Part shown: piece after piece, positions 2,180-26,483 of the stretch
Layout: each line of letters opens with the position of its first letter
Position numbering within the stretch: the stretch's first letter is position 1
Assembly (NCBI GenBank): GCA_002839765.1
Contig: PGYR01000004.1
Coordinates: 1 to 45,054, forward strand
Length of the DNA stretch: 45,054 bases
Source of the DNA: Ignavibacteriae bacterium HGW-Ignavibacteriae-4
GTDB taxonomy: Bacteria > Bacteroidota > Ignavibacteria > Kapaibacteriales > UBA2268
Direction of reading: 5' to 3'
Notes under the pieces: model-generated
Seen by the model: the letters and a program-made list of their open reading frames with translations, nothing else
Database searches by the model: none
Told to the model about the DNA's origin: nothing
Program-made: the position numbers and the translations under genes

Positions 2180-2809
2180 ATGAATTTTGAAGTACAAGAT
2201 TGGGGTTTGATAGACTTCCAAGAGGCGTGGGATAGACAAAAAGAACTTGTGACGGCCATCCAGAAAGGGGAGCAAAGATCAACTCTTGTCCTTTGTAGCC
2301 ATCCGTTAGTTATTACAATGGGTAGAAATTCGAGCTACGATAATCTAGTTCTACCAAGAGAAGAATACGACAATAGAAATATCAATGTGATAGACATAAA
2401 CCGTGGGGGAGACGTTACTCTTCACAATGAAAACCAACTCGTTGGTTATCCAATCTTCAATCTAAATGACTTCAAACCCGATTTGCATTGGTTTCTTCGT
2501 GAAATCGAAGAAGCAATCATCAACACAGTAGTCGAGCTAGGAATCACTTCTAGCCGAGTAGATGGGCTAACTGGAGTATGGATTGAAAATCAAAGGAAAA
2601 TCTGTGCTATTGGGCTGCATTGCTCCCGATGGGTAACTTCGCACGGATTCGCACTCAATGTTTGCAACAATGTAAAAGATTTTGACTATATTGTACCTTG
2701 TGGAATTGACGATAAAGAAGTAACTTCCATAAAAAACGAAATTGGCACAGATGTTGATATAAATAATATCAAGAATATAGTTATCGAAAAGTTCTCAGAA
2801 CTCTTCTAA
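2180..2809 (+). CDS. lipB: Octanoyl-[acyl-carrier-protein]:protein octanoyltransferase
   Basis: LipB moves an octanoyl group from acyl-carrier protein to lipoyl domains of 2-oxoacid dehydrogenases and the glycine cleavage system; LipA then inserts sulphur. The 209-residue length is normal. Visible motifs are RGGDVT (75-80), QLVGYPI (86-92), LTGVWI (130-135), the catalytic lysine in RKICAIG (K140), SHGFALNV (154-161) and the catalytic cysteine in PCGI (C174). The acyl-binding loop, usually H-G-P-G-Q, reads H-N-E-N-Q at 82-86. The flanking motifs are intact, so the enzyme is probably active. The ATG follows the batA stop with no gap and has no Shine-Dalgarno of its own, so it is likely translated by coupling. 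A tRNA gene starts 13 bases after the stop. Confidence 0.92.
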   Translation: MNFEVQDWGLIDFQEAWDRQKELVTAIQKGEQRSTLVLCSHPLVITMGRNSSYDNLVLPREEYDNRNINVIDINRGGDVTLHNENQLVGYPIFNLNDFKPDLHWFLREIEEAIINTVVELGITSSRVDGLTGVWIENQRKICAIGLHCSRWVTSHGFALNVCNNVKDFDYIVPCGIDDKEVTSIKNEIGTDVDINNIKNIVIEKFSELF

Positions 2810-2822
2810 ATTATATCAAAAA

Positions 2823-2895
2823 GCAGGAGTAGCTCAGCTGGTAGAGCACAACCTTGCCAAGGTTGGGGTCGCGAGTTCGAATCTCGTCTCTTGCT
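2823..2895 (+). tRNA. tRNA-Gly (GCC anticodon)
   Basis: The 73 bases fold as a complete cloverleaf. The acceptor arm pairs GCAGGAG with CTCTTGC (one G-U), the D arm pairs GCTC with GAGC, and the anticodon arm pairs CAACC with GGTTG around TTGCCAA. The T arm pairs GCGAG with CTCGT around TTCGAAT. Anticodon GCC reads GGC and GGU glycine codons. The discriminator base is T and CCA is not encoded. It sits between lipB and a TlpA-like gene on the same strand. Confidence 0.97.
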
Positions 2896-2945
2896 CTAGA
2901 ATTCATATACCCCAAAATAGATTTCTTTATGGATTAGTTTAATTG

Positions 2946-2953
2946 TATATTTG
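2946..2953 (+). promoter_or_regulatory. Possible Bacteroidota-type -7 promoter box
   Basis: TATATTTG fits the Bacteroidota sigma-A -7 consensus TAnnTTTG exactly and lies 23 bases before the start of the TlpA-like gene at 2977, a plausible distance for a short 5' UTR. I see no convincing -33 TTTG box upstream, so this is a motif match only. Confidence 0.35.
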
Positions 2954-2976
2954 TCAAATAAACATTGGAATCTAAT

Positions 2977-4176
2977 ATGAAATTCATTCTTTTTTATCTT
3001 TTGCTGTTATTGAGTCTAGTCAATATAAATGCTCAAACTAGAATAATTGGTCAACTTGATTCGATGGAAAATTATTCTGAAATAGTTTATCTATCCGCAA
3101 TTAGTGACTATAATAATTCTTTTACCGCTAGTACAAGTCTGTTTATTAAAACCGCAAATATTAATGAAGATGGAAGGTTTGAATTTAATCTAGACTCGCT
3201 ACCTTGTAAAGAATGTTTGTATAGAATTGAACTAAGACTTAAAGATTCTAAAGGTGCAATAATAATTAATGGTCGAAGTGATGAAAATTTTGCATTATTC
3301 GAAATTAAAGAAGGACAAAAAATACAGATTACTGGTAATGCAAACCAATTATCAAAATCATTCAAATTAAAAGGAATAACAAATAATTGGACTTATAATG
3401 AATTAAGAGATTTACGTGAGCCTATTTATAAGTTTTCAGATTCGGTTTATTTTACATTTACAAACCTTGGTAATCTGAAAAATAATAATCTTGATTCATT
3501 GAAACAGGCAATGTTCGATAAATTAACTTCTATAATAGAAGAAAATAACAAGAATCTTTTAAAATTTATTTTAGAGTCAAATAATATCTATGACAAGATA
3601 ATTGGAACAAAATTATATGATTACGACATGAAAATGGAAAATGATATAGAGTTATATGAAAAGATAAGTGAACAGTTAGCAGGTAATTATAAGGACCATC
3701 CTTATCTTAAGCAACTAAATGAAAAAATTTATAATTCAAAATATGTATTACCTACTGGTAGCAAAGCACCAGAATTGAATTTACCCAATATTAACAATAA
3801 TAACATTCTATTATCGGATGTTGGAACTAATCTAATTTTAATCGATTTTTGGGCGTCGTGGTGTGGCCCTTGCAGGAAAGAAAATCAAGAAATAGTCAAA
3901 CCACTTTATAAGAAATATAACGAACAAGGTTTTAATGTATATAGTGTCTCAATGGATATTGATAAAAGTAAATGGTTAAACGCAATTGAAAAAGATGGAA
4001 TGAATTGGATAAATGTTTCTGATTTATTGGGAAATAATTCGCCTGTATACGGATTATACAAATTTAATTCTTTACCTTCTACTTATCTAATCGAAAAAGA
4101 TGGACTGAAAATATTGGCTAAAAATTTAAGAGGGAAAGAACTGATAGAATTCTTAGATAATTATTATAGTAAATAG
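2977..4176 (+). CDS. Secreted TlpA-like thioredoxin-fold protein with N-terminal DUF4369-like domain
   Basis: The start is set at ATG 2977, because the upstream in-frame TTG at 2965 would add four residues before a clear signal peptide (MKFILFYLLLLL..., cleavage after about residue 20). This gives 399 residues. The first half is a beta-rich domain like DUF4369, common at the front of Bacteroidota periplasmic TlpA proteins, and includes a CKEC motif near residue 77. A helical linker follows. The thioredoxin domain starts near residue 260 with the typical 'GSKAPELNLPN' strand and has the redox site WCGPC (Cys296 and Cys299). A cis-proline follows in 'SLPSTYLI'. Such proteins reduce disulfides in the periplasm, for example in cytochrome c maturation; the specific substrate here is unknown. 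It stands alone between a tRNA and a convergent fic gene. Confidence 0.85.
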   Translation: MKFILFYLLLLLSLVNINAQTRIIGQLDSMENYSEIVYLSAISDYNNSFTASTSLFIKTANINEDGRFEFNLDSLPCKECLYRIELRLKDSKGAIIINGRSDENFALFEIKEGQKIQITGNANQLSKSFKLKGITNNWTYNELRDLREPIYKFSDSVYFTFTNLGNLKNNNLDSLKQAMFDKLTSIIEENNKNLLKFILESNNIYDKIIGTKLYDYDMKMENDIELYEKISEQLAGNYKDHPYLKQLNEKIYNSKYVLPTGSKAPELNLPNINNNNILLSDVGTNLILIDFWASWCGPCRKENQEIVKPLYKKYNEQGFNVYSVSMDIDKSKWLNAIEKDGMNWINVSDLLGNNSPVYGLYKFNSLPSTYLIEKDGLKILAKNLRGKELIEFLDNYYSK

Positions 4177-5491: not shown

Positions 5492-6460
5492 ATGAAAATA
5501 CTACAATATTCAATTCTAATTATATTTATACTCATATTTGCTACCAGCAATGCCTTATCTAAGGATATATACTCAGTCTCTAAATTCGTTAGTGCTGATG
5601 TTGGTAAAGAGTTGATAGTAAAAGATGATGATTATTCGAAGGCACTCTCAAACTTCGATTTGGAATTAAGAGTACATAAAGCAAAACCAACCTTAGCAAA
5701 TCTCAATAGTTTTACTCAAGAGCAAGTGCTAGAATGGACTAAGACCGAGAGCAATTTATTAGATTCTCTAACAAAAGTTATTTCGGATATTGCTATAGAG
5801 AAAGGATATAATTTTATACTACCAGACCAGATAGCTTTCATCAAAACCACTATGGAAGAAAATAAAGGTGCGGGTGGTTACACTCGATTGAATTATATAG
5901 TGCTCAGTAAAGATGTTTTTCTAATGCCAAAATCGAAATTAAAAAGTGTAATTGCTCACGAGTTATTCCATGTTATATCTAGATATAATCCCGAACTTAG
6001 AACTCAGTTATATTCTGTTATTGGCTTCACAACTTGCAATCCAATAGAAATCACTACTAGACTAAGGGACTTCACTCTCTCCAACCCTGATGCTCCCAAT
6101 ATAGATGCGTATATTATACTCAAAAATAAGAGTGGCGAAGAAGAAAAATGCGCTATGGTACTCTATTCGGATAAAGAATATAATGGTGGAGCTATGTTTG
6201 ATTATATGAAAGTTGGCTTTCTTAAATTAACAAAGAATAGTGATAATAATATGGAACTATTTGTAGAAAATGGAAAGGAACAAATATTTAATGCTCAAGA
6301 AATTACTGGTTTTTTTGAGCAAATAGGATCCAATACTCACTATATAATCCATCCAGAAGAAATAGTCGCTTCTAATTTCGAATTACTTTTCGATGAGTAT
6401 CCGATAGTCAACAGTGCAGAAATTCTTTCTAATATTGAAGAAATATTAAAAAATAATTAA
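5492..6460 (+). CDS. Secreted putative zinc metallopeptidase (HELFH)
   Basis: The protein has 322 residues and a signal peptide (hydrophobic 6-19, likely cleavage near 'NALS'). HELFH at 156-160 is a zincin motif (H156, H160 ligands, E157 base) inside a helix 'LKSVIAHELFHVIS'. Downstream, HPEEIVASNF at 285-294 has the look of a third zinc ligand (Glu287 or Glu288) on a second helix, as in gluzincin-type proteins. I do not recognise a named family, and no substrate can be given. It diverges from fic across the repeated operator cluster. A 7-bp inverted repeat (TTAATGA at 5434-5440, TCATTAA at 5448-5454) lies upstream. Its stop shares the palindrome TTAA with the glgA stop, so the two convergent genes overlap by 4 bases. 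Confidence 0.7.
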   Translation: MKILQYSILIIFILIFATSNALSKDIYSVSKFVSADVGKELIVKDDDYSKALSNFDLELRVHKAKPTLANLNSFTQEQVLEWTKTESNLLDSLTKVISDIAIEKGYNFILPDQIAFIKTTMEENKGAGGYTRLNYIVLSKDVFLMPKSKLKSVIAHELFHVISRYNPELRTQLYSVIGFTTCNPIEITTRLRDFTLSNPDAPNIDAYIILKNKSGEEEKCAMVLYSDKEYNGGAMFDYMKVGFLKLTKNSDNNMELFVENGKEQIFNAQEITGFFEQIGSNTHYIIHPEEIVASNFELLFDEYPIVNSAEILSNIEEILKNN

Positions 6461-7923
6461 CTCTTATCGTCCAATACTTCTTTGAAAACTTCTAAGTAGC
6501 CTTTGGCACAACGTCTTGAAGAGTGATTCTCAGCCATTCCGTTAAGTCGAATTTTTTCTATGTGGTCTTTAGATTTATACAAATCTATTGCCCGGCGAAT
6601 TGATGCTTCTAGCTCATCTCTGTTATAATGCGGGAATGAAATACCGTTTCCGGTTCCTTTCTCCGCCGAATAATTGGATATAGTATCAGCCAGCCCACCA
6701 GTTGCTCTTACTATTGGAATAGTTCCATATTTAAGTGCATACATTTGCGTTAGTCCGCAAGGTTCGTATTTCGATGGCATGAGTAAGAAATCGGAAGCTG
6801 CAATTAATCTATGGGCTTCTCTTTCGCTATATTTCAGTTGCAATATTACATTATCAGGGAATTGATTTTTAGCTTCTATTACCAGATCTTCATATTTCGC
6901 TTGACCTTCTCCAAGTATAGCCAATATAAACTTATTAGTGTTCAGTAGTTTAGCAATTTTGTTTTCTAATATATCTAAACCTTTTTGCTCTGTTAGTCTA
7001 CTGACGAATGAAATTAGTGGAAGATGATGTCTGGTCTCTGGAATTTCTGTTTCACGTAAGTACTCTAGTTTCAATTCCTCTTTTATTCCCAAACTACCAG
7101 AATCGTAATTCTTGCTCAAAAAAGTATCAGTTATTGGATTCCAATCTCTGTAATTAACTCCGTTGAGAACACCTGTAATATCACGCAAGCGGCTATTAAT
7201 AGCGTCTTGTAGCCCCTCGCTGTAGTATGGTTCTTTTATCTCTTCGGCGTAGGTAGGGCTAACCGTTAGTATTCTATCAGCGTACATGATTCCTGTTTTC
7301 ATGAAGTTTACTTTGCCTTCATGCTCAAACCAAGAACCAACCTCGAATTCTTTGTGTTTCAATCCAGTGAAATCCATAACCCTGTATTTATCATATATAC
7401 CTTGATACGAGAGGTTGTGAATCGTGAATACTGTACCTGTCTTAGCAAAAAGTGTTTCGTCTTTGTACTGAGCTTTCAGTATCGGCATTATGAAAGACGT
7501 ATGATAATCATGACAATTTACAATATCTGGACTGAAGTTTATGGCTTTGCATAGTTCGGGAACTGCTTTGCAGAAGAATAGAAAACGACGATCGTCATCT
7601 TCATCTTCGTTCCTATCACCATAGACATAATCTTCATCAAAAAACTCATCGTGCCCAATTAAAAATATACGTGCTTCACTATTTGGGAAACTACCGCTAT
7701 AAACTGTAGCTGTTTCCTTACCAAAACCCATTGGTACTTCAAAGGAAATATCGGTTTTTCTGAGTCCATAAGCCGCTTTGTCTATTGACTTATAGCCGGG
7801 TAGAACTGCAATTACATCATGACCCATCTCACCCCATTCTACACAGAGGTAAGAAGTAACATCCGCCATTCCGCCACCTTTGGCGAAAGGGTTGATTTCT
7901 GCTGCTGCTAATAGTATATTCAT
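6457..7923 (-). CDS. glgA: Glycogen (starch) synthase, GT5 family
   Basis: GlgA extends alpha-1,4-glucan chains from ADP-glucose (or UDP-glucose) in the cytoplasm. The 488-residue length is typical. The N-terminal loop KGGGMADV at 15-22 is the family nucleotide-sugar loop (usually KTGGLADV; Lys15 contacts the donor phosphate). Further family signatures are 'HDYHTSF', 'TIHNLSYQG', 'NGVNYRDWNP', 'SRLTEQKGLD' and the C-terminal donor-site block 'SKYEPCGLTQMYALKYG' followed by 'RATGGLADT'. No other glycogen genes (glgB, glgC, glgP) lie within the window. It diverges from panB across 56 bases and converges on the HExxH gene. Confidence 0.95.
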   Translation of the reverse strand: MNILLAAAEINPFAKGGGMADVTSYLCVEWGEMGHDVIAVLPGYKSIDKAAYGLRKTDISFEVPMGFGKETATVYSGSFPNSEARIFLIGHDEFFDEDYVYGDRNEDEDDDRRFLFFCKAVPELCKAINFSPDIVNCHDYHTSFIMPILKAQYKDETLFAKTGTVFTIHNLSYQGIYDKYRVMDFTGLKHKEFEVGSWFEHEGKVNFMKTGIMYADRILTVSPTYAEEIKEPYYSEGLQDAINSRLRDITGVLNGVNYRDWNPITDTFLSKNYDSGSLGIKEELKLEYLRETEIPETRHHLPLISFVSRLTEQKGLDILENKIAKLLNTNKFILAILGEGQAKYEDLVIEAKNQFPDNVILQLKYSEREAHRLIAASDFLLMPSKYEPCGLTQMYALKYGTIPIVRATGGLADTISNYSAEKGTGNGISFPHYNRDELEASIRRAIDLYKSKDHIEKIRLNGMAENHSSRRCAKGYLEVFKEVLDDKS

Positions 7924-17019: not shown

Positions 17020-17070
17020 AAAAAACTTTCATCTTTTTTGAGATGTTTTTGCTGTTCAGGTGTCTTTATA
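17020..17070 (+). repeat. 51-bp leader element, copy A
   Basis: The 51 bases ending three bases before ATG 17074 match the reverse complement of 26433-26483 in 42 positions without gaps. The best part is 17050-17070, GCTGTTCAGGTGTCTTTATA preceded by T, with one mismatch. Copy A also contains a small hairpin, CATCT (17030-17034) with AGATG (17041-17045), followed by TTTTT. Both copies lie directly upstream of genes for secreted surface proteins in the direction of transcription. It may be a shared promoter or 5' UTR, or the remains of a duplicated gene front. Confidence 0.7.
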
Positions 17071-17073
17071 TAT

Positions 17074-18318
17074 ATGAATACAACACAAATTAAAATACTT
17101 TTTTTCTTTTTGTCATTTTCTAGTGTCTTCTCACTAGATTTCGATTTGGAGAAAATCACCTTACCTTATGACTCTCTTGATATACGGGACATATCCGTTT
17201 ATAATGAGACTATACTATGTAGGGCTGGGAATAAAGTTTATAGATCGGAAGATGATGGGATAAGTTGGGAAATTGTATTCGATGCACCTCATAAAATAAA
17301 TCATTTCTATTCTCTCAATGCTCACACTATGTTTGTAGTTGGGGATAGCGGGATGGTTTATAGGTCTATGGATTACGGAAATAACTGGATTGACCTGAGT
17401 ATAGACACCAAGAAAAACCTAACCCGAATAGCCGCAAAAGACTATAGTGATTGCCTTGTTATCACAGCTAATCGTTTTGTATTTCATAAAGAGAAGTTCA
17501 ACACAGATTGGATCGCTTATGATAACTACTATGTAAAAGCAAATCTATTCTCAGTGGCTTTTGCCGAAGGTAAATATTTTTTTGGGGGGAAGAGTAATTT
17601 CGATAGAACTGATAGATATCAGGGTGGAGGTGCTGCTGATTTATATGTATTCTATGGCTTTACTTTAGATAATCATAAATTATCAAATTACCTAATAGAT
17701 GATAATATAGATAGAATTGGTGATTCATTAAAGGTTTATAATTTGAATAATAAGCTTTATTCCTCTGCAAATTATAAGAATACGACATGTCTTTCACTAA
17801 GCAAAAGATTTGATGTACCAAGATCGTTGGGAATTGGGTTTTACATTTATGATGATCAGATTATTGAACCATTTAATATTGAAGATGATATTTATATATT
17901 CACAAGAGGTTCGAAAATATTCACTTTTGGAATATATAAACTAGAAAACAATGGAGCTACATTATTTAACTTTCATCCTGATACAACTGAACTGAACATG
18001 GGTATCACAAACGATGTGGCAATGTCGAAAGATAGTTTATTCTACTTAGCTTCAATTAATTCCAATATATATAAGGTAAAGCTAAAGGAAACAAAAACGA
18101 GTGTTGAGTATGAGGATAATAAAGAACTAATCTCCCAATATGGAAATATTATTCAATTCAGTCCTGAAGTATATGAACTTTCAGTTTATAATTATTTGGG
18201 TGAGAAGATTGCAATTTCAACTCACTTAAGTCAAGTTAATCTTGAGAGAGGTATTTATATTCTAATATACAAATACAGAAATCGTAAATACTCAAAAAAA
18301 ATAATTGTGGGGTATTAG
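17074..18318 (+). CDS. Secreted BNR/YCF48-like beta-propeller with short T9SS-type tail
   Basis: ATG 17074 is chosen because it directly begins a signal peptide (1-19, 'ILFFFLSFSSVFS'); the in-frame TTG at 17038 would encode part of the duplicated leader. The 414-residue protein has repeats such as 'VYRSEDDGISWEIV' and 'VYRSMDYGNNWIDLS', typical of BNR/sortilin or YCF48-like propeller blades. The final 65 residues read 'ELSVYNYLGEKIAIS', 'LERGIYILIYKYRNRKYSKKIIV', which follows the T9SS sorting-domain pattern, but the usual YPNP segment is replaced by 'IQFSPEVYE'. The stop is one base from the next ATG, so the two genes are co-translated. The ligand or role is unknown. Confidence 0.7.
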   Translation: MNTTQIKILFFFLSFSSVFSLDFDLEKITLPYDSLDIRDISVYNETILCRAGNKVYRSEDDGISWEIVFDAPHKINHFYSLNAHTMFVVGDSGMVYRSMDYGNNWIDLSIDTKKNLTRIAAKDYSDCLVITANRFVFHKEKFNTDWIAYDNYYVKANLFSVAFAEGKYFFGGKSNFDRTDRYQGGGAADLYVFYGFTLDNHKLSNYLIDDNIDRIGDSLKVYNLNNKLYSSANYKNTTCLSLSKRFDVPRSLGIGFYIYDDQIIEPFNIEDDIYIFTRGSKIFTFGIYKLENNGATLFNFHPDTTELNMGITNDVAMSKDSLFYLASINSNIYKVKLKETKTSVEYEDNKELISQYGNIIQFSPEVYELSVYNYLGEKIAISTHLSQVNLERGIYILIYKYRNRKYSKKIIVGY

Positions 18319-18319
18319 A

Positions 18320-19939
18320 ATGAGAATTATATTAATACTTACATTGTTTTCATGTTACTTAGCACAATCTCAGCAACCTGCTGTATTAGATAGATTAGTT
18401 ACAATCGACACAAATACTATATGGACTCAACAAGACGGCTATGAGTCTAGTGATTTAAAAGTAGATGGCATTGATTATTTCAAAAAAATAGACACATCAT
18501 TTTTCATAAAATATAGAAATAAGGGTTACTATCTTAGCAAAGATGGTTCGGGTTATAAGATAGTCGATATGCCTGATATAAATAGGTACAAACCTGCAGC
18601 TTGGGATGTACCCTATGATGATATACATAAGATATTTGGGTTTGAGTTTGATGATGAAAATAATAAAGGGAACTATAGAATAACATCAAAAAAAGAAGGG
18701 AAGATTGATTCTATTGGTTTACATATTTATGACCCAGGTCGTAATCCTAGTATCCATACTGGTGGAGAAAGTAATGTATATTTATTAGCTTATAAAGAGG
18801 GGAATATAATTCTTTATGCTGATTATTTTTATGTAAATGAGGCTTATAGAAATAAACGAAATTCTTGTTTTATTTATAACTCTCTTTTAGATACAACAAA
18901 ATCATTATCTGAAATCATTTTACCCTATGCATATATAAATAATTCATTAAATTATATTATTAGCTATAACCCAAATAAAATTGAAGAATATTATAACTAT
19001 TTTGACAATGCAGATACATATAATGTATATAATTTAGGTGATCAGAGTAAACCCAATGGAGTTCTTCGTTATGGTGTACCTAATATGCAGTTATCTCAGA
19101 ATTCGGGCTTTCTAATAAATGATTCTTTGGCAATAGCACTGACTTACGATACTCTTAGAGTCTATAATTTTCTTACTTCGATACCAATAAAATCATTATA
19201 TGTTCCAGATAAAAAATTCTTTGGCGGCCACTATTACGATGAGGCTTCTAGATCGGTAATCTTTAATTATGTTGGTATTACCGATAATAAATCTTATAAT
19301 AGCGTGCTTCATATACCATCACTTAATATAATAAGAGATACTCTCAACGATAAACCATATCTAGGAAGAATACTCACTAGACTAGACGATGGGAAATACC
19401 TTTCCTATGGCTCTGGAGGTTATCTATATAAGTTCGAATTGGACTTAGGACTAGATTATGCATATGCAGATATCAAAGCTGAATTAATTGATAAAAATAC
19501 GTTTAAACTTACGGATAATTCGAAAGGCCCTATAGTCAAATGGTCGTGGGATTTGGGCGATGGTAATAAATCTAACGAACGCAACCTAGAGCACAAGTAC
19601 ATAAAAAGTGGCAGTTATACGGTTACACTAGCGATAGAGAATGAATTCGGTACAAAGGACACAATAGTCTCTCAAGTAAATGCAAAAGATGTGTTGAGTG
19701 CTTTTTACTCAGCAGATATACTCGGAGGCTCAGCCCCTATAACAGTCTCGTTTATGAATCGATCCTTCGGTGAAGCTACTAAGTTTATTTGGAATTTCGG
19801 AGATGGCAAGTCATCCATGGAAGAAAACCCTGTACATATATACAAATCACCTGGTACTTATGGTGTATCCCTTACCATTTTTGATAAGGATGGTAAATTC
19901 GATATTAAGTTATTAGATGATTTGATTGTGGTACAGTAG
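18320..19939 (+). CDS. Secreted protein with two C-terminal PKD domains
   Basis: ATG 18320 lies one base after the upstream stop; the in-frame TTG at 18305 would only prepend five residues to a clear signal peptide (about 1-17, 'ILTLFSCYLAQSQ'). Of 539 residues, the first 375 or so are propeller-like without a named family. Two PKD domains follow: the first has 'IVKWSWDLGDGNKSNERNLEHKY' and the second 'TKFIWNFGDGKSSMEENPVHIY', each with the WdFGDG core and '..SYTVTL/.TYGVSL' strand. The protein ends at the close of the second PKD domain without a T9SS sorting tail, so its export route is unclear. It probably works with the propeller protein encoded just before it. Confidence 0.75.
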   Translation: MRIILILTLFSCYLAQSQQPAVLDRLVTIDTNTIWTQQDGYESSDLKVDGIDYFKKIDTSFFIKYRNKGYYLSKDGSGYKIVDMPDINRYKPAAWDVPYDDIHKIFGFEFDDENNKGNYRITSKKEGKIDSIGLHIYDPGRNPSIHTGGESNVYLLAYKEGNIILYADYFYVNEAYRNKRNSCFIYNSLLDTTKSLSEIILPYAYINNSLNYIISYNPNKIEEYYNYFDNADTYNVYNLGDQSKPNGVLRYGVPNMQLSQNSGFLINDSLAIALTYDTLRVYNFLTSIPIKSLYVPDKKFFGGHYYDEASRSVIFNYVGITDNKSYNSVLHIPSLNIIRDTLNDKPYLGRILTRLDDGKYLSYGSGGYLYKFELDLGLDYAYADIKAELIDKNTFKLTDNSKGPIVKWSWDLGDGNKSNERNLEHKYIKSGSYTVTLAIENEFGTKDTIVSQVNAKDVLSAFYSADILGGSAPITVSFMNRSFGEATKFIWNFGDGKSSMEENPVHIYKSPGTYGVSLTIFDKDGKFDIKLLDDLIVVQ

Positions 19940-20034
19940 TGTGGGATTGTCCGGCTTCGGTAAGTGTATTTCATCCACAAATGTCTAGTATTCCAAATAT
20001 ACCTTTAACAATAGGGTACTGTTTCAAACAATTA

Positions 20035-20105
20035 GACTTTCTGTACTCATCAATAAACCGATAGAAAGTCAATGAACCGACACTAAGGATAATTATTGGT
20101 CCTTA
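20035..20105. repeat. Two inverted repeats upstream of the FMN reductase gene
   Basis: GACTTTCT (20035-20042) is repeated as AGAAAGTC (20063-20070), and TAAGGA (20084-20089) as TCCTTA (20100-20105). Neither is followed by a T-run. The second lies about 70 bases before the reductase start and may be an operator; I cannot name a regulator. Confidence 0.3.
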
Positions 20106-20172
20106 ATTGCAAAAAATCTAGTTATCTTTACCGTACTAAAGTTATTAACTTTCAACAAAAAAGGAATTGAAA

Positions 20173-20742
20173 ATGAAAATAGCAGTAATATATGGATCAG
20201 TTAGGCATCATCGCCAAGGTGTTAGAGTAGCTAAGTATATAGTAAAACAACTAAATGAGCGGGGCATTGATAATATCTTTGTAGATGCAAAAGAGCATAA
20301 ACTCCCTTTCTTAGATAATATGTACAAAGAGTATAATGGTGACGCTCCCGAAGAAATTGAAAATTTGCATCAGATATTCGACTCTGCAGATGGCTTCATA
20401 ATAGTAAGTGGAGAGTATAATCACGGTTTACCTCCAGCACTTAAAAACATGTTAGATCATTACCAAAGCGAATATCATTTCAAACCATCGGGTCTAGCTA
20501 CATACTCGGCTGGTATGTTCGGAGGAGTAAGGGCAGCAGTACATCTGAGAGCAGTAACAGCAGAGCTTGGGATGCCGTCTATTCCGACTACTTTCCCTGT
20601 ACCTTCAGTTGGCAAAAACTTCGATGAAAATGGCAATACGGATAATGAGCATATCCCAGGTGGATTCGATAGATTTATAAAAGAGTTTATGTGGTACGCA
20701 GAAGCTCTAAAAGCAAAACGCGATAAGGACGGAAAGCCATAG
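20173..20742 (+). CDS. NAD(P)H-dependent FMN reductase family flavoprotein
   Basis: ATG 20173 follows AAGGAA and opens directly with the flavodoxin-like strand MKIAVIYGSVR; a TTG six bases upstream is less likely. The 189-residue protein has the phosphate loop 'GSVRHHRQGVRVAKY', the isoalloxazine-binding 'SGEYNHGLPPALKNMLDHY' and 'YSAGMFGGVRAAVHLR'. These are diagnostic of the FMN_red family (PF03358), which includes azoreductases, chromate and quinone reductases. The physiological acceptor is not predictable. It appears to be a single-gene unit. Confidence 0.9.
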   Translation: MKIAVIYGSVRHHRQGVRVAKYIVKQLNERGIDNIFVDAKEHKLPFLDNMYKEYNGDAPEEIENLHQIFDSADGFIIVSGEYNHGLPPALKNMLDHYQSEYHFKPSGLATYSAGMFGGVRAAVHLRAVTAELGMPSIPTTFPVPSVGKNFDENGNTDNEHIPGGFDRFIKEFMWYAEALKAKRDKDGKP

Positions 20743-20797
20743 TTTTTGAATAATACATTTCTGAAACCTTACTATTTATACCTTTAGGAGTGACTAA

Positions 20798-20920
20798 ATG
20801 AGTGTAAAGTACTGTATTTTGATTTATTCAGAGTGTGGTATTTATAATAGGTTTGGGAGATTTGAAGATGTTCGGATTAAGTTTCTACGGTCAGTGAAAT
20901 CATTTAATTCATACTTCTGA
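20798..20920 (+). CDS. Possible 40-residue small protein
   Basis: An ATG at 20798 is preceded by AGGAG at seven bases' distance and opens a 40-codon frame beginning MSVKYCILIYSECG and ending in TGA at 20918-20920. The good ribosome-binding site is the only support. The peptide has no signal sequence, membrane helix or family motif I recognise, and is short enough to arise by chance. Confidence 0.25.
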   Translation: MSVKYCILIYSECGIYNRFGRFEDVRIKFLRSVKSFNSYF

Positions 20921-20983
20921 TATATTGATAGTCACTTCCCTGTCTTTGGCTAGAAAGACAAGGAGGGACTTACTAAAGATACT

Positions 20984-21352
20984 TTACAGTTCATCGCCAG
21001 AAAGCAAATATAGTATATACGCAGAAATTGCCATTACCAAATCACGTACTGCTACATCGACAAAGCTGAAACTTGCTATTAGTGAAAGTGCTATTAGTGC
21101 TAACCAGATAGAAACTACCAATGCACCTAATTTTGTTTTCAGCAAAACTAACAAACCTGCTGCTATCTCGATAACACCGATTATCATCATAAAGCTATCA
21201 GTGTTCATTGGTATTGTTTGTGCTAATATCGGATTTACGTATTGTGACCAATCTGTGAGTATATTTGTGAATTTGTCTAATCCTGCTACAATTGGAACTA
21301 CTACGAATACGTATTTTAAAATAGTATATATCTTTTGAATTATACTAGTCAT
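20984..21352 (-). CDS. DoxX-like four-helix membrane protein
   Basis: The 122-residue protein has four hydrophobic segments (about 12-25, 50-68, 74-95, 98-116). The first helix motif 'VVVPIVAGLDKFTNIL' and 'IGVIEIAAGLLVLLKTKLGALVVSIWLALIAL' match the DoxX/DoxD fold (helix 1 ..R...G..H/K.., helix 2 G..E...G..L). DoxX proteins are linked to quinone or thiol oxidation in some bacteria, but most are uncharacterised. It diverges from an ECF sigma factor gene across 142 bases containing two palindromes, so joint control is possible. Confidence 0.8.
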   Translation of the reverse strand: MTSIIQKIYTILKYVFVVVPIVAGLDKFTNILTDWSQYVNPILAQTIPMNTDSFMMIIGVIEIAAGLLVLLKTKLGALVVSIWLALIALSLIASFSFVDVAVRDLVMAISAYILYLLSGDEL

Positions 21353-21397
21353 TATATTACCTTTTAGAATTGTTAAAAAAATATACTTATTAGATGA

Positions 21398-21426
21398 TGT
21401 AATTACAATTGAGTTACATTTGTAAC
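21398..21426. promoter_or_regulatory. Two palindromes between doxX and the ECF sigma gene; one fits TACAnnTGTA
   Basis: TGTAATTACA (21398-21407) is a perfect palindrome. GTTACATTTGTAAC (21413-21426) is a perfect 6-2-6 inverted repeat containing TACA-TT-TGTA, the operator consensus of the BlaI/MecI/CopY winged-helix repressors (cop box TACAnnTGTA). The same bases include TACATTTG (21415-21422), which also fits the Bacteroidota -7 box TAnnTTTG for plus-strand transcription. No BlaI/CopY-type gene lies in the window. Whether the sites work on doxX, the sigma factor or both is inference. Confidence 0.5.
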
Positions 21427-21494
21427 CTTTTAGCTGTTAGTGTATCTAATCTAGAAAACAGAAGTGCAATACCAAAAAAAGGAATAGAATTATA

Positions 21495-22103
21495 TTGGAA
21501 GAGCAAGTAATAATAGAGAGAATAATATCCGGTGAAAAGGAATTTTATGAATTGCTAGTTAGGAGGTACAATCAGACTTTATATAGGGTTATCAAAGGAT
21601 TCATCTCCGATGACAGTGATATAGAGGAGATAATGCAGATTTCATATGTAAAAGCATTTGAAAAGCTTTCAACATTCAATATGAAATCGAAATTCAGCAC
21701 TTGGCTAATTAGAATAGCTATCAACGAATCATTGCAGTTCAACAAGAAGAGTGTAAAATACAGATCTATCAACTATTCTGATATAGGGTATTCTGATAAT
21801 TCATTAAAAAACCCCGAACAGTTATTAATTATGAATGAATCTACTCAAATCTACGAACAGGCAATTTCTGAATTAGATCCAATTTACAAATCGGTCTTCA
21901 TACTTAGAGAAATAGACCTAATGAGCATAAAGGATATTTCCGAATCACTTGAAATATCCGAATCTAATGTTAAAGTTCGTTTGCATAGAGCTAAAGTGCA
22001 GATAAAGGAAATATTATACCATAATCAGAATAGAGAAAATATTTTCGAATTTGGGAATCATAGATGTGATAATATGGTTGCAAACGTTATGAAATCAGTT
22101 TAA
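21495..22103 (+). CDS. ECF-type RNA polymerase sigma factor
   Basis: The 202-residue protein has sigma region 2 ('FYELLVRRYNQTLYRVIKGFI' to 'AFEKLSTFNMKSKFSTWLIRIAINESLQ') and region 4 ('LDPIYKSVFILREIDLMSIKDISESLEISESNVKVRLHRA'), with no region 3, as in extracytoplasmic-function sigma factors. The C-terminal extension 'FEFGNHRCDNMVANVMKSV' is shared by one ECF subgroup. The start is TTG 21495: no ATG lies upstream in frame and the conserved region 2 begins soon after. No adjacent anti-sigma factor is visible, since the next gene is on the opposite strand. Its divergent neighbour is doxX. Confidence 0.9.
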   Translation: MEEQVIIERIISGEKEFYELLVRRYNQTLYRVIKGFISDDSDIEEIMQISYVKAFEKLSTFNMKSKFSTWLIRIAINESLQFNKKSVKYRSINYSDIGYSDNSLKNPEQLLIMNESTQIYEQAISELDPIYKSVFILREIDLMSIKDISESLEISESNVKVRLHRAKVQIKEILYHNQNRENIFEFGNHRCDNMVANVMKSV

Positions 22104-22194
22104 TAAACAATTGTTATTGCTCTGAGTGTGTCGAAGAAAGGCATCATTCTGTTATAAGGAATGGTACCTTATTATTAGAGTAAAGGTTCGTCTC

Positions 22195-24576
22195 TTAAAG
22201 CCCCTTTCTTTTTGCTATCAAATTGACAGCAGATACTGTGAATACAATCACGCTGATGGAGCTGATAGGCATAAGAATAGCGGCGACAACTGGCGAGAGA
22301 TGGCCGCTTGCAGCGAATGATATTCCAACTGTATTATAGATGAATGAAATCCCAATACTTGCATAAGCAATTTTAATTGCAGACTTAGACATTTGCATAA
22401 ACTTAGGCAATTTGTCGAGCTCATCGCCTAATAGAATAGCATCACTGCCTGGGGTGAAATTATTTGACTTTTCGGCTATTGCAATTCCTACATTCGCTTT
22501 TGCTAATGCTCCAGCGTCGTTCAGTCCATCACCGACCATTGCAGTATTAGCACCATTGCCTTGTAATTCGGCTATGTAATCGAGCTTTTCGTGGGGTAGC
22601 TTATTGAAATGTGTTTTAGTTCCTTTGGGTGCTTTTGCTAATATATTATTCTCATCTTTTTGGTTATCACCTGATATAATGGAGATATCGTACCCATTTT
22701 TTGATAGCTCCTCCAAAGTTTCGAAGGCATTATCACGGAACTCACTTCTGTTATAAAAAGCTCCATATACTTCCCCGTTTATCTCTAGTACAGCAGCGTT
22801 CTCAGCTTGTGTCCCAGATTTGGGTTCTATCCATTTAGCAGATCCAATCCGTATAGTTATATCTTTGTGAGTGGCAATAATACCTTTACCTGTTAACTCC
22901 TCGAAACTACCTATTTCTTCATTACTCGAACCTGATATAGAACTATTAATTAGTGAACTAATTGGGTGTGTGCTATTAGATACGGCTGCTTTTACTATTG
23001 ATTTATACTTCTCGAAATCCTTCCCTTTATAGATTATACCACCGTCCGTAGCTTTAGTAAGCGTACCTGTTTTATCGAACACAAACGAGTCAATATTAGA
23101 TAGAAACTCGACTATGCCGTCCGTCTTTATAAAGAATCTATTCCTGCCAAATACTCGCATAGTAGAGCCATAAGTGAATGGCAATGTAAGTGCCAGAGCG
23201 CAAGGGCAAGCGATGATTAATATTGCTGTAAGTACGTCAAATGCCTTAGCCGTGCTATGTGGTAGCCAGAAAGCGAATGCAGCAATCCCAATTATCATAA
23301 CTACTATAGAAAAATTACGAGCTATCATATTTGACATTTTCGAAATTCCTTTCTTTGAGAATTTTTCGAATGCATCATTGTTCCATAGCTTAGTCAAATA
23401 GCTCTGATCGAACTCTTCGGTTACTAGAACTTCTATGGCTTTGCCCAAAGCCCTTCCGCCAGCGTATATTTTCTCATGATGTGTTATACTAACTGGGGAA
23501 GATTCGCCGGTGACGAAGCTGTAATCCATCATTGCTTTTTCTGATTCGAGCAAGCTATCTGTTGGAATAATCTCATTATTTCTGATTAGTAGGACATCAC
23601 CTATTTTTATATCTTTCAATGTTATATGTTCGTTCTCGTTATTTGTTTTTCTGATTACAGAAAGTGGGAAATATGACTTATAATCCCTATCGAACGAAAG
23701 TAAATTATATGTTTTTTGTTGGAATAGTTTCCCTATAAGTAAGAAGAAAAGCAGGCCTCCAAGTGAGTCCACATAACCATGTCCAGAATTAGTGACTATG
23801 TCAACAGTTGAGCGAACAGCAAGGACAATTATCCCAATTGAAATGGGTATGTCTATATTGAATATTTTTGTTTTAAGTCCATAATATGCTGACTTCAGAT
23901 AATCGCTACCAGCATAAAGAAGAGGTATGATAAATAGTATATTCAACCAATTAATAAGCTCTTTTATAGCTGGTTCTATCGCCTCACCACCCGATAGATA
24001 CTCTGGGAAAGCAAGCATCATAAGATTGCCAAATGAGAAACCTGCTACTCCCAATTTGATATATAACGAACGGTTGGGGCTCTTGCTTTTATTGCCCTCC
24101 ATCGATGTGAGGTCTAGCTTTGGCCTATAGCCGAGAGCAGCTAATAGCTCTACGACAGACCTAATAGAAATAACAGTCTCGTCATATATAACATCTATTT
24201 CCTTATTCGGAAAATTTACTTCCGATTTCAGGATTCCATCTTTCAATTTTGGTAGATTTTCTAGTAGCCAAATACAAGCCGAGCAGTGGATTTGTGGTAG
24301 ATTAAAAATAACTTTTGATTTACCATTTATACTATATGTCTTTAGTTTTTCGGTTATTTCAGCATTGTCTAGGAAAGCAAACTCGTCTGTATCAATAGAG
24401 TCGGGTCTCAACGCCCCACTTCCATCTTCCATATTGTAGAATCCAGCTAGATTATTGTCTTGCAATATCTCGTAAACTGTTTTGCAACCGTTACAACAGA
24501 ATACATTCTCGCCAAGAGAGATAGTATCATCAGGACATTCGCTGCTACAGTGTTTACAAATTAGCTTTTCAGACAT
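22195..24576 (-). CDS. ccoI: CcoI/FixI-type copper-transporting P-type ATPase
   Basis: The protein has 793 residues. The N-terminal cysteine-rich domain (C7, C10, C14, C27, C28, C31) is the metal-binding domain typical of FixI/CcoI. An HMA domain follows with CSAC at 98-101. The P-type core has TGES at 356-359, the membrane CPC site at 457-459, DKTGTLT with the phosphorylated Asp501, and 'GDGLNDAGALAKANVGIA'. The double N-terminal layout matches CcoI, which supplies copper for assembly of cbb3-type cytochrome c oxidase, rather than the detoxifying CopA. No ccoNOP, ccoG or ccoS lies next to it here, so the gene is separated from its usual operon. It converges on the ECF sigma gene and lies 71 bases downstream of marC on the same strand. 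Confidence 0.9.
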   Translation of the reverse strand: MSEKLICKHCSSECPDDTISLGENVFCCNGCKTVYEILQDNNLAGFYNMEDGSGALRPDSIDTDEFAFLDNAEITEKLKTYSINGKSKVIFNLPQIHCSACIWLLENLPKLKDGILKSEVNFPNKEIDVIYDETVISIRSVVELLAALGYRPKLDLTSMEGNKSKSPNRSLYIKLGVAGFSFGNLMMLAFPEYLSGGEAIEPAIKELINWLNILFIIPLLYAGSDYLKSAYYGLKTKIFNIDIPISIGIIVLAVRSTVDIVTNSGHGYVDSLGGLLFFLLIGKLFQQKTYNLLSFDRDYKSYFPLSVIRKTNNENEHITLKDIKIGDVLLIRNNEIIPTDSLLESEKAMMDYSFVTGESSPVSITHHEKIYAGGRALGKAIEVLVTEEFDQSYLTKLWNNDAFEKFSKKGISKMSNMIARNFSIVVMIIGIAAFAFWLPHSTAKAFDVLTAILIIACPCALALTLPFTYGSTMRVFGRNRFFIKTDGIVEFLSNIDSFVFDKTGTLTKATDGGIIYKGKDFEKYKSIVKAAVSNSTHPISSLINSSISGSSNEEIGSFEELTGKGIIATHKDITIRIGSAKWIEPKSGTQAENAAVLEINGEVYGAFYNRSEFRDNAFETLEELSKNGYDISIISGDNQKDENNILAKAPKGTKTHFNKLPHEKLDYIAELQGNGANTAMVGDGLNDAGALAKANVGIAIAEKSNNFTPGSDAILLGDELDKLPKFMQMSKSAIKIAYASIGISFIYNTVGISFAASGHLSPVVAAILMPISSISVIVFTVSAVNLIAKRKGL

Positions 24577-24647
24577 ATTCTAGATATATGGTTATTATCA
24601 AGTTCAAAAATAAAAAGAAGTGGACGAAGATATGCTAAGAATTGTGT

Positions 24648-25235
24648 TTAAAGTATCTTTATACCATCTATAAGCATCTGAACCGCCATCATCACCAATA
24701 TCATACCCATTAATCTCTCCAAAGCTATGAGTCCTCGCTCACGCAAAACTTTGAGTAATTTCGGTGCAAAAAGTAATATAGCCGCTGTAATAGCCCAAGC
24801 TAATATCAAAGCTAAGAACCAATGTGTCATTTTACCTGGTCCACTCTGAGTCATCAACATAAGCATAGCCAATACCGATGGTCCAGCTATAAGGGGAATA
24901 GCAAGTGGCACTATGAATGGTTCACCATCAGGTTGTGGCCCCATAAGTCCGTCAGGTGTAGGGAATATCATTCGTAAGCCAATAATTAGTAATATAATAC
25001 CACCAGATATAGTAACGGCTTCTTGTTGAAGATGTAGAAAGTTAAGCAATGGTTTACCCATAAAAAGGAAAACAAGGAGAATACCAAGAGCTATCAAAAG
25101 CTCTCTCATTATTATCACTCTTTGTCTTTTAGAATCTATTCCTTTCAGTACGGTTAATAGTACAGGTATATTACCCAATGGATCCATTAGGAAAATTAAT
25201 ACTATTGCAGAAGACCAAATACTTAGAGATTCCAT
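24648..25235 (-). CDS. MarC family integral membrane protein
   Basis: The 195-residue protein has six hydrophobic helices. Motifs are 'LIFLMDPLGNIPVLLTVLKG' in helix 1, 'GGIILLIIGLRMIF' in helix 3 and 'PLAIPLIAGPSVLAMLMLM' in helix 4, which are the conserved repeats of the MarC/YhgN/YchE family. The family's transport function is not established, despite its name. ATG 25235 directly begins the first helix. It lies upstream of the copper ATPase on the same strand, and the functional link is unknown. Confidence 0.92.
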   Translation of the reverse strand: MESLSIWSSAIVLIFLMDPLGNIPVLLTVLKGIDSKRQRVIIMRELLIALGILLVFLFMGKPLLNFLHLQQEAVTISGGIILLIIGLRMIFPTPDGLMGPQPDGEPFIVPLAIPLIAGPSVLAMLMLMTQSGPGKMTHWFLALILAWAITAAILLFAPKLLKVLRERGLIALERLMGMILVMMAVQMLIDGIKIL

Positions 25236-25562
25236 TTAATAACTATATTATTGAGCAATGACTGAAAGGTGAGTTCAAAATTAACTAAATGATAAGTTGA
25301 ATACAATCTTATTATCAGAAATGAAATTTGTCACTATTTTGAAACCCTTTTGAAAGAAATGTGTTATTATAGTTGTAATAGAATAGAATCCGCATTATTC
25401 TATATCACTGTGCTGGCTTTGATGTCAGCAAGAATAGAGCTGCCAATTAACTTGGTGGCTCTTTTTATTAGAAGAGGATTACACAGATTATTTGCTTTAA
25501 AGAAGAGAAGAGAGGTCTTGCGAGTCCTGATTTTTTATTTTAGATTGAAAAAGTTAGATACC
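25236..25562. other. Gene-free stretch beside marC holding hairpins
   Basis: The 327 bases contain no gene I can support. A 110-codon plus-strand frame from 25350 lacks any protein-like pattern and runs antisense into the decayed T9SS gene. The stretch should contain the marC promoter near its left end. The three hairpins at 25378-25466 are listed separately. Confidence 0.5.
25378..25466 (+). ncRNA. Three successive hairpins ending in a terminator; possible small RNA
   Basis: Hairpin 1 pairs ATAGAATA (25378-25385) with TATTCTAT (25396-25403). Hairpin 2 pairs TGCTGGC (25411-25417) with GTCAGCA (25424-25430), one G-T. Hairpin 3 pairs AGAGCTGCCAA (25436-25446) with TTGGTGGCTCT (25452-25462), eleven pairs including two G-T, and is followed by TTTTTATT. 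This is a plus-oriented intrinsic terminator with no plus-strand protein gene before it, so a small RNA starting near 25330-25375 is a natural explanation. The 5' end and any promoter are not clear. Alternatively, hairpin 3 terminates stray transcripts. Confidence 0.4.
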
Positions 25563-26402
25563 TACCTCAGCACTTCTAAAAACTCTGTTTTACTTATAGT
25601 TGGAGTTGTAAGATTAAGGAAGTACCTACCCGATGGGTATTGGCTGACATCGATCTGTAATTCCTTATGCCCAATGGTTTGATAACCTGAGAGTAATATA
25701 TCTAATCTAGTACCTTGGCTGTCGAAAAGCTCAAGAGTAGTTACTCCGTTTTCTGTGAGTTCAAGTGTTATTTTTGCTATACTAGATGCTATGTTGGGGT
25801 GGATGGTAAAGCGGGTGTTGGACTCAGTTTTACTAGTACTTGAAGTATTATAAAGAATTGAAAAAATATCAGATTGAGAAGTATATATGGTATTAGCAAT
25901 TGATAATTTGACTAATTCAACTTCAAAAAAGTCTCTAATTTGTTCCGTAACTCTTTGTCCAAACTATCTCACCAATAGAATCTAGTTTCATAACCCAACC
26001 ATTACCATCTTTATCACCAACTGCTATAAATCCGCCGTCTGTTGTTGGATTCATTGAGTTTATTTTTCCTCCATAACTTTTTGACCAAAGCACAGGTGGT
26101 TTATATTGAATGTCGGTAATTTGAGTTGCTTTTACCAAACAGCTATCGCTGATTATATTTGGTACTGTCCATTTATACCTATCATTCGCACTGTAAGGAT
26201 CTAGGATAGTCCAGTCTTTTCCATTATTTGGACTAAATTCTACTCTAGCCATTTCATCACCATAAAACATATAATCTCTCCACCAAATTACCACCTCACT
26301 CCCTGCTTGTAGCTTTTCACCACCAGTTGGGTAGTCTATTCTAAACTGAGCAATTGCGGAAGTCGATAGGGCAATAAATAGTAAAAATATTATGTATTTC
26401 AT
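25563..26402 (-). pseudogene. Decayed T9SS surface protein with in-frame TAG
   Basis: From ATG 26402 the frame encodes a signal peptide (1-18), a Kre9-like Ig-type domain ('YPTGGEKLQAGSEVVIWW', 'FSPNNGKDWTI', 'YKWTVPN'), and one propeller-like repeat ('WSKSYGG' ... 'GGFIAVGDKDGNGWVMKLDSIGEIVWTKSYGTN'). It then meets TAG at 25935-25937. The same frame stays open for 123 more residues to 25563. That part starts with what looks like the end of a second Kre9-like domain ('LVKLSIANTIYTSQSDIFSI') and closes with a T9SS sorting domain ('LELFDSQGTRLDILL', 'SGRYFLNLTTP'). The arrangement suggests that an internal deletion removed repeats and left a stop at the junction. The intact gene's leader is the 51-bp element copy B. 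A real stop-codon readthrough is less likely. Confidence 0.75.
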
Positions 26403-26432
26403 TTCTTTTTCTAATTGTGGTTAGTTTATACC

Positions 26433-26483
26433 TATAAAGACACATGAACAGCAAAAATGTCTCAAAAAGAGTGAAGTTTTATT
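26433..26483 (-). repeat. 51-bp leader element, copy B
   Basis: Read on the minus strand, this matches copy A (17020-17070) in 42 of 51 positions, ending in GTGTCTTTATA. It ends 30 bases before the start of the decayed T9SS gene, whereas copy A ends 3 bases before its gene. The two copies are inverted relative to each other and 9.4 kb apart. Confidence 0.7.

Follow-up and report, generated by a model that had tools for sequence, protein, structure and literature searches.

A short DNA element that occurs twice, in opposite orientations, in the 45,054-nucleotide stretch analysed here (the window) is probably the promoter of an autoregulated extracytoplasmic-function (ECF) sigma/Dma-type regulon for a subset of the surface proteins of Kapabacteria. 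Its most likely reader is P0001, a 189-aa sigma factor encoded on contig C12 of the window's genome (G000; 3.36 Mb in 110 contigs). The evidence, all of it drawn from sequence, consists of the family of copies, their orientation, the enrichment of certain genes among their targets, the presence of the element at the sigma operon, the concordance of operon and cargo promoters within lineages, and the domain layout of the protein encoded next to the sigma gene.

Aligned without gaps, the two copies (17020-17070, + strand, and 26433-26483, - strand; Table 1) are identical at 42 of 51 positions and differ at 9, as the initial annotation had reported. Its judgement that a chance match is unlikely also holds: the window has exactly two occurrences of a 25-base core, and 100 dinucleotide shuffles yielded none at up to 3 mismatches. 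Copy 1 fits the element pattern with 2 mismatches (58.9 bits, E 1.0e-15 with the model R1 described below) and copy 2 with none (63.3 bits, E 4.2e-17). As had been noted, 3 bases separate the end of copy 1 (17070) from the ATG at 17074, and 30 bases separate the end of copy 2 (26433) from the ATG at 26402. The product of target gene 1 is BNR/Sortilin-like, with scores below the Pfam cut-offs, and has no match to the sorting domain PF18962 at E 0.01. Target gene 2 is indeed decayed, as had been proposed: compared with its 605-aa LH_M33 relative (L111), two pieces remain in different frames, residues 1-167 (26402-25944) and 483-605 (25936-25565). In sister species both sites persist in front of the equivalent genes (L111, L162), 30 bases before the ATG of the 605-aa relative and at the same distance as in the window before the ortholog of target gene 1 (L162); the flanks have diverged strongly at site 1 and less at site 2. 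The PKD-domain gene that follows target gene 1 possibly shares its transcript.

Table 1. Features of the two element copies and of the genes behind them; positions are those of the window.
Feature	Position	Strand	Remark
Element copy 1, A-tract	about 17020-17025	+	sequence
Element copy 1, -35-like TGAGAT	17039-17044	+	predicted label
Element copy 1, T-tract	17046-17050	+	sequence
Element copy 1, -10-like GTGTCTTTATA	17060-17070	+	predicted label
Target gene 1, 414-aa secreted beta-propeller-like protein	17074..18318	+	signal peptide by eye
PKD-domain protein, start codon uncertain	18305..19939	+	overlaps end of target gene 1
Target gene 2, 3' remnant matching LH_M33 residues 483-605, out of frame with 5' part	25565..25936	-	
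Target gene 2, 5' part of decayed secreted-protein gene, 155-aa open frame	25935..26402	-	
Element copy 2, predicted -10-like GTGTCTTTATA	26433-26443	-	sequence
Element copy 2, predicted -35-like TGAGAC	26459-26464	-	sequence
Element copy 2, A-rich tract	26483 end	-	sequence

Comparison of the element with the whole genome and with relatives, the check that the initial annotation had proposed, revealed a genome-wide family and not a lone pair. A similarity search of G000 returned 29 matches (E <= 0.0012 for 20), and the pattern TGAGAC-N9-GTTCATGTGTCTnTAT with at most 3 mismatches gave 21 sites against 0 for a reversed-pattern control. R1, a sequence-only model built from 18 copies, found 83 sites at E < 1e-3, of which 24 lie in G000 and 14, 18 and 27 in three further genomes of its genus, and 20 weaker matches up to E 1 in these four genomes. 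The pattern was matched in 18 of 60 genomes, G000 included: it has 21, 15, 17 and 27 sites in the four genomes of the genus, is present, with up to 25 sites, in 13 of the 32 further family genomes, and occurs in 1 of 24 genomes from other families, a match that resembles chance. The reversed pattern gave 3 matches in total over the 60 genomes. A looser pattern found 90 stretches across 84,980 species, and the record titles of the 80 that were listed read Ignavibacteria, Ignavibacteriae/Ignavibacteriota, Bacteroidetes, Bacteroidetes/Chlorobi group, Candidatus Kapaibacterium or simply 'bacterium'; from these titles we take the group to be Kapabacteria. Three copies in G000 lie at contig ends (C36:12-42, C68:10067-10097 and C78:7750-7780; L007, L005 and L003) and have about 25-40 further upstream bases in common. 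Copies close to contig ends are also seen in G021 (C22, C24, C29). The assembly may have broken at these points because the gene downstream is repeated, for instance as a member of a multi-copy surface-protein family; a search for the first bases of that gene found C78 only.

The order of the parts is an A-tract, TGAGAC, a T/A-tract, a variable middle and TGTGTC(T/A)nTAT, followed by a nearby start codon. Within the genus the fixed parts are the A-tract, TTGAGAC, the T-tract and TTCATGTGTC(T/A)nTATA. Among genera the boxes shift stepwise (TGAGACG with TC(T/A)nTAT; TGAGACC with TCATTAT; TGGGACAAAA with TCTTTAT), and in some genera an A-tract replaces the T-tract. Sigma-factor promoters show stepwise box variation of this kind. 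The two conserved boxes, at near-constant spacing around a variable middle, are what an ECF promoter is expected to have; the box distance was imposed in the pattern searches and left free in the model search and in the operon-promoter test described below (spacers 13-15). The information content of an alignment of 98 matches is inflated, because its loci had been preselected by the pattern. Should transcription start about 7 bases past the -10 box, the mRNA of the propeller gene would have little or no leader. Six of 81 targets (L115, L119, L122, L134, L162, L165) have their chosen start codon 4 bases past the 31-base pattern and are likewise predicted to give leaderless mRNAs.

The genes that the element faces are mostly of one kind. 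For 81 of 91 sites in 90 loci an open reading frame starts on the same strand within 250 bases, at a median of 34 bases, and 49 of these 81 starts fall within 60 bases. The target set comprises 57 complete proteins of at least 150 aa; of the 91 sites, 10 lack an ORF start within 250 bases, and the genes at another 24 fall outside the set. A crude signal-peptide rule, ad hoc in that it passes some cytoplasmic proteins (NAD-binding-like; L091, L103, L156) and fails clear secreted ones (L162), is satisfied by 51 of 57 targets vs 104 of 279 ORFs elsewhere in these loci (p 9e-14). Type IX sorting domains in the last 110 aa are enriched as well (TIGR04183, 37 of 57 targets vs 12 of 57 neighbours, p 2e-6; PF18962, 36 of 57 vs 12 of 57, p 5e-6), the controls being a random draw from the 279 same-locus ORFs of loci that may themselves be surface-gene clusters. 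The sigma factor itself accounts for 3 of the 57 targets (L085, L098, L159). PorU and PorZ models matched targets through sorting-domain-like ends in the scan, which covered the last 110 aa of the 57 targets. Within G000, 4 of the 21 sites are at contig ends with no readable gene; of the other 17, 15 precede signal-peptide genes (by eye), 1 precedes P0001 and 1 a Polysacc_synt_2-like protein. A shared promoter of a surface-protein group, one of the readings first offered for the pair, is thus supported by a genome-wide family that faces nearby genes and is enriched for signal-peptide and type IX genes. G000 has at least 150 TIGR04183 matches (150 of 232 candidates were scored), and because only 6 of the 150 listed clearly follow a site, the element marks a subset of type IX cargo. 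Two non-secreted targets recur in the genus, the Polysacc_synt_2-like protein (C74:9339 in G000; L091, L103, L156) and a bacterial sugar transferase (C66:40210 in G000; L157); both might contribute to the sugar by which type IX cargo is anchored.

The element stands 17 bases ahead of the start codon of P0001 itself, a distance that is the same in all four species of the genus. The element is identical before P0001 and its three genus orthologs (89-94% protein identity), and the sequence farther upstream has diverged. Matches to Sigma70_r2 (44.2 bits) and Sigma70_r4_2 (52.2 bits), both above cut-off, and to TIGR02937 (88.8 vs a cut-off of 42.9) assign the protein to the ECF sigma factors; its top NCBIfam match, NF058625 (GFO_1088/PG0214 family sigma), scores 96 bits, under the curated 130-bit cut-off. 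A promoter at the own sigma gene is typical, if not universal, for ECF factors, and is found here in 4 of 4 species of the genus and, beyond the genus, in 14 of 22 family genomes. A lipoprotein-like gene of about 330-400 aa (lipobox by eye) separates the element from the sigma gene in most of the other genera. The 22 genomes were searched with TGAGAC-N13-15-TGTGTC over 1.5 kb upstream of the sigma gene (0.5 kb in G015, where the contig cuts the region). The boxes are present without substitution in 8 (G007, G008, G009, G010, G014, G018, G024, G028), with 1 substitution in 3 (G021, G022, G025) and with 2 in 3 (G016, G019, G035), and each of the 14 matches was equalled in at most 3% of 60 shuffles. 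The lipoprotein gene comes next after the element in 13 of the 14, the sigma gene directly in G019. At the level of loci, L087, L089, L133 and L153 hold the element and the sigma gene with one gene between, and L099 and L121, which end before the sigma gene, hold the element and the lipoprotein gene. The promoter is missing or indistinguishable from chance in 7 of the 22 (G006, G011, G012, G013, G023, G027, G030); the best match has 3 substitutions in G006, G012, G023 and G030, and in G006 and G030 it nonetheless stands directly before the lipoprotein gene.

The operon-promoter test was used in place of a phylogenetic profile of motif counts against sigma orthologs, which was not clean because the motif drifts between genera: G012, G013, G014, G022 and G008 have a sigma ortholog (51-59% identity), yet 0 sites at 3 mismatches. 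The drift appears to be common to operon and cargo. Across six groups, the sigma-operon promoters are nearer to the cargo promoters of their own genome than under reassignment (2 of 720 permutations), with the own cargo set ranking first in only 3 of 6 groups and second or third in 3; the input was 6 promoters and 39 of the cargo sites listed (7 of 13 for G021, 11 of 12 listed for G024, 13 for the genus). In G021, where the operon sigma is 40% identical to P0001, operon and cargo alike carry TGGGAC.

Other sequences near these sigma genes were observed in passing. A second conserved block, TTACTTATATTG and its neighbours, lies roughly 40-110 bases upstream of the -35 box in four species (L209-L212) and is perhaps a housekeeping promoter. 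Locus L193 (G000:C12) contains two sigma/barrel-protein gene pairs about 2 kb apart (2224-4046 and 5939-7779), the second with upstream boxes of its own that are different. In other families of the order (L227, L228, L231, L232, L238) related sigma genes have upstream box pairs like TTGCAAC..TGTGTTATT (by eye), and the promoter code may be traceable over the whole order.

The open frame that follows the sigma gene has, at 29 of 30 loci, a product of 381-482 aa with a hydrophobic stretch (in one case truncated by the contig). A structural model of the LH_M33 partner, of low confidence (mean pLDDT 48, about 70 in the barrel; pTM 0.37) and informative for layout only, shows helices at the N-terminus, then a membrane helix (110-131), a disordered region up to about 265 and finally eight strands that run to the C-terminus. 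The predicted barrel aligns with those of OprF, NspA and OmpA (Z 14-16). An N-terminal helical domain, a membrane helix, a disordered tether and a C-terminal beta-barrel are, within the confidence of this model, the layout of Dma proteins (dual membrane-spanning anti-sigma factors). Pfam and NCBIfam contain no model that matches the partner, and a search of solved structures by sequence with the Dma-like alignment gave two matches at E 0.18, which were of no use. From its position and layout we infer that the partner is an anti-sigma factor acting on P0001.

The following sequence of events can be envisaged. The partner would span both membranes, with its helical N-terminus, membrane helix, disordered tether and outer-membrane barrel, and the barrel would sense the state of the outer membrane or surface. 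In response, the N-terminus would let go of the sigma factor, which could then bind and activate the promoter of its own operon and, in each genome of the genus, roughly 14-27 promoters. Predicted targets are for the most part genes of secreted proteins or surface proteins, many of which have type IX sorting domains, along with a few polysaccharide genes. A sensor switch with an outer-membrane barrel might in this way decide what type IX cargo a Kapabacterium displays, and possibly also what surface polysaccharide, the pair and its promoter code having drifted together across the family; this fuller picture is tentative and somewhat less likely than not.

Another regulator, either a second ECF paralog or an activator using AGAC...GTCT half-sites, could read the element, with P0001 merely one of its targets. 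G000 has 22 Sigma70_r4_2 matches, several other ECF genes have related upstream sequences (by eye), two of which are weak R1 matches (C107:9949, E 0.0033; C32:108316, E 0.11), and the two boxes contain short inverted half-sites. Such a regulator is nevertheless unlikely, given the exact form of the element at P0001 in all four species and at its operon in other genera, and the box changes common to operon and cargo, such as TGGGAC in G021; the outer half-site pair, moreover, is broken in 45 of 91 sites. The ECF-type sigma gene between the two copies in the window (21459-22103; best NCBIfam match PRK11922) has no upstream element and was rejected as the reader.

Readings in which the element is not a promoter fare worse than that of P0001 and its regulon. 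That it is a diverged duplication, a mobile repeat or a recombination site, standing before genes by accident, could be argued from the near-identical copies within one genome, from the longer similarity of the three contig-end copies and from the tandem relatives of the propeller gene at C12. It is very hard to reconcile with a fixed orientation and distance to unrelated genes of enriched function, with orthologous sites, both window sites included, kept in sister species while their flanks diverged, and with bipartite variation among genera; a plasmid-borne repeat was rejected after a search of a plasmid collection with the element gave no match. The recombination site and simple diverged duplication entertained in the initial annotation are therefore not supported, and neither is its regulatory 5' UTR: the element ends where the -10 box of an ECF promoter is expected, so that transcription should begin beyond it. 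A structured or translated leader, whether a cis-acting RNA or an upstream peptide, is just as improbable. The short complementary arms AGAC/GTCT would allow a hairpin, which was rejected on the broken outer pair just mentioned, and an Rfam scan of the window found one tRNA only and no structured-RNA match to the element. By eye, translation of the two copies gives short peptides that resemble each other; this possibility was dropped because the middle bases vary freely, and start codons at times lie only 3-4 bases past the element.

If the fuller picture of a surface-sensing switch holds, one protein across both membranes would couple the state of the surface to its make-up. An uncultured group gains, from a single repeat in raw DNA, a predicted regulon with a promoter code and candidates for its sigma factor and its envelope sensor. 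As the element would mark a co-regulated subset of cargo, it becomes testable which surface proteins switch together, and by what signal. In open-licence PubMed Central, neither the element nor a Kapabacteria surface-protein regulon was found; the parts are of known kinds, and their combination and the promoter code were not seen there.

The closest relatives in organization are the Dma systems of Bacteroides, whose proteins, in the excerpt available, have an N-terminal domain, a membrane helix, a disordered tether and a C-terminal barrel and are encoded beside an ECF21 sigma factor (PMC13088901). The same excerpt describes a third gene in the Bt dma2 operon, which is the operon most induced when Das2 is free, and links Dma to vesicles and polysaccharide utilisation loci (PMC13088901). 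In Kapabacteria, too, an ECF sigma gene adjoins a gene with this domain layout; unlike the Dma systems as that excerpt presents them, signal-peptide and type IX proteins make up most of the predicted targets, which stand behind a defined promoter element (PMC13088901). This suggests that Dma-type regulators serve surface cargo beyond the vesicles of Bacteroides. SigP of Porphyromonas gingivalis, with PorXY, likewise ties an ECF sigma factor to type IX secretion (PMC4800418). According to the portion of that paper at hand, SigP acts on type IX component genes and cooperates with PorX, and the motif proposed for it, C(T)AAA(G/C/T)A(T)A(C)T(A/G)A, differs from the element, whereas in Kapabacteria it is type IX cargo that is enriched and the partner is Dma-like (PMC4800418). 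The SM6 promoters of Flavobacterium psychrophilum, in the passages available, are also of ECF type, include an ECF/anti-sigma pair among their targets and have a type IX link; they carry a CGT box at -10 and count type IX components such as PorU among their genes, whereas the Kapabacteria element has TGAGAC/TGTGTC boxes and stands before cargo genes (PMC9723704).
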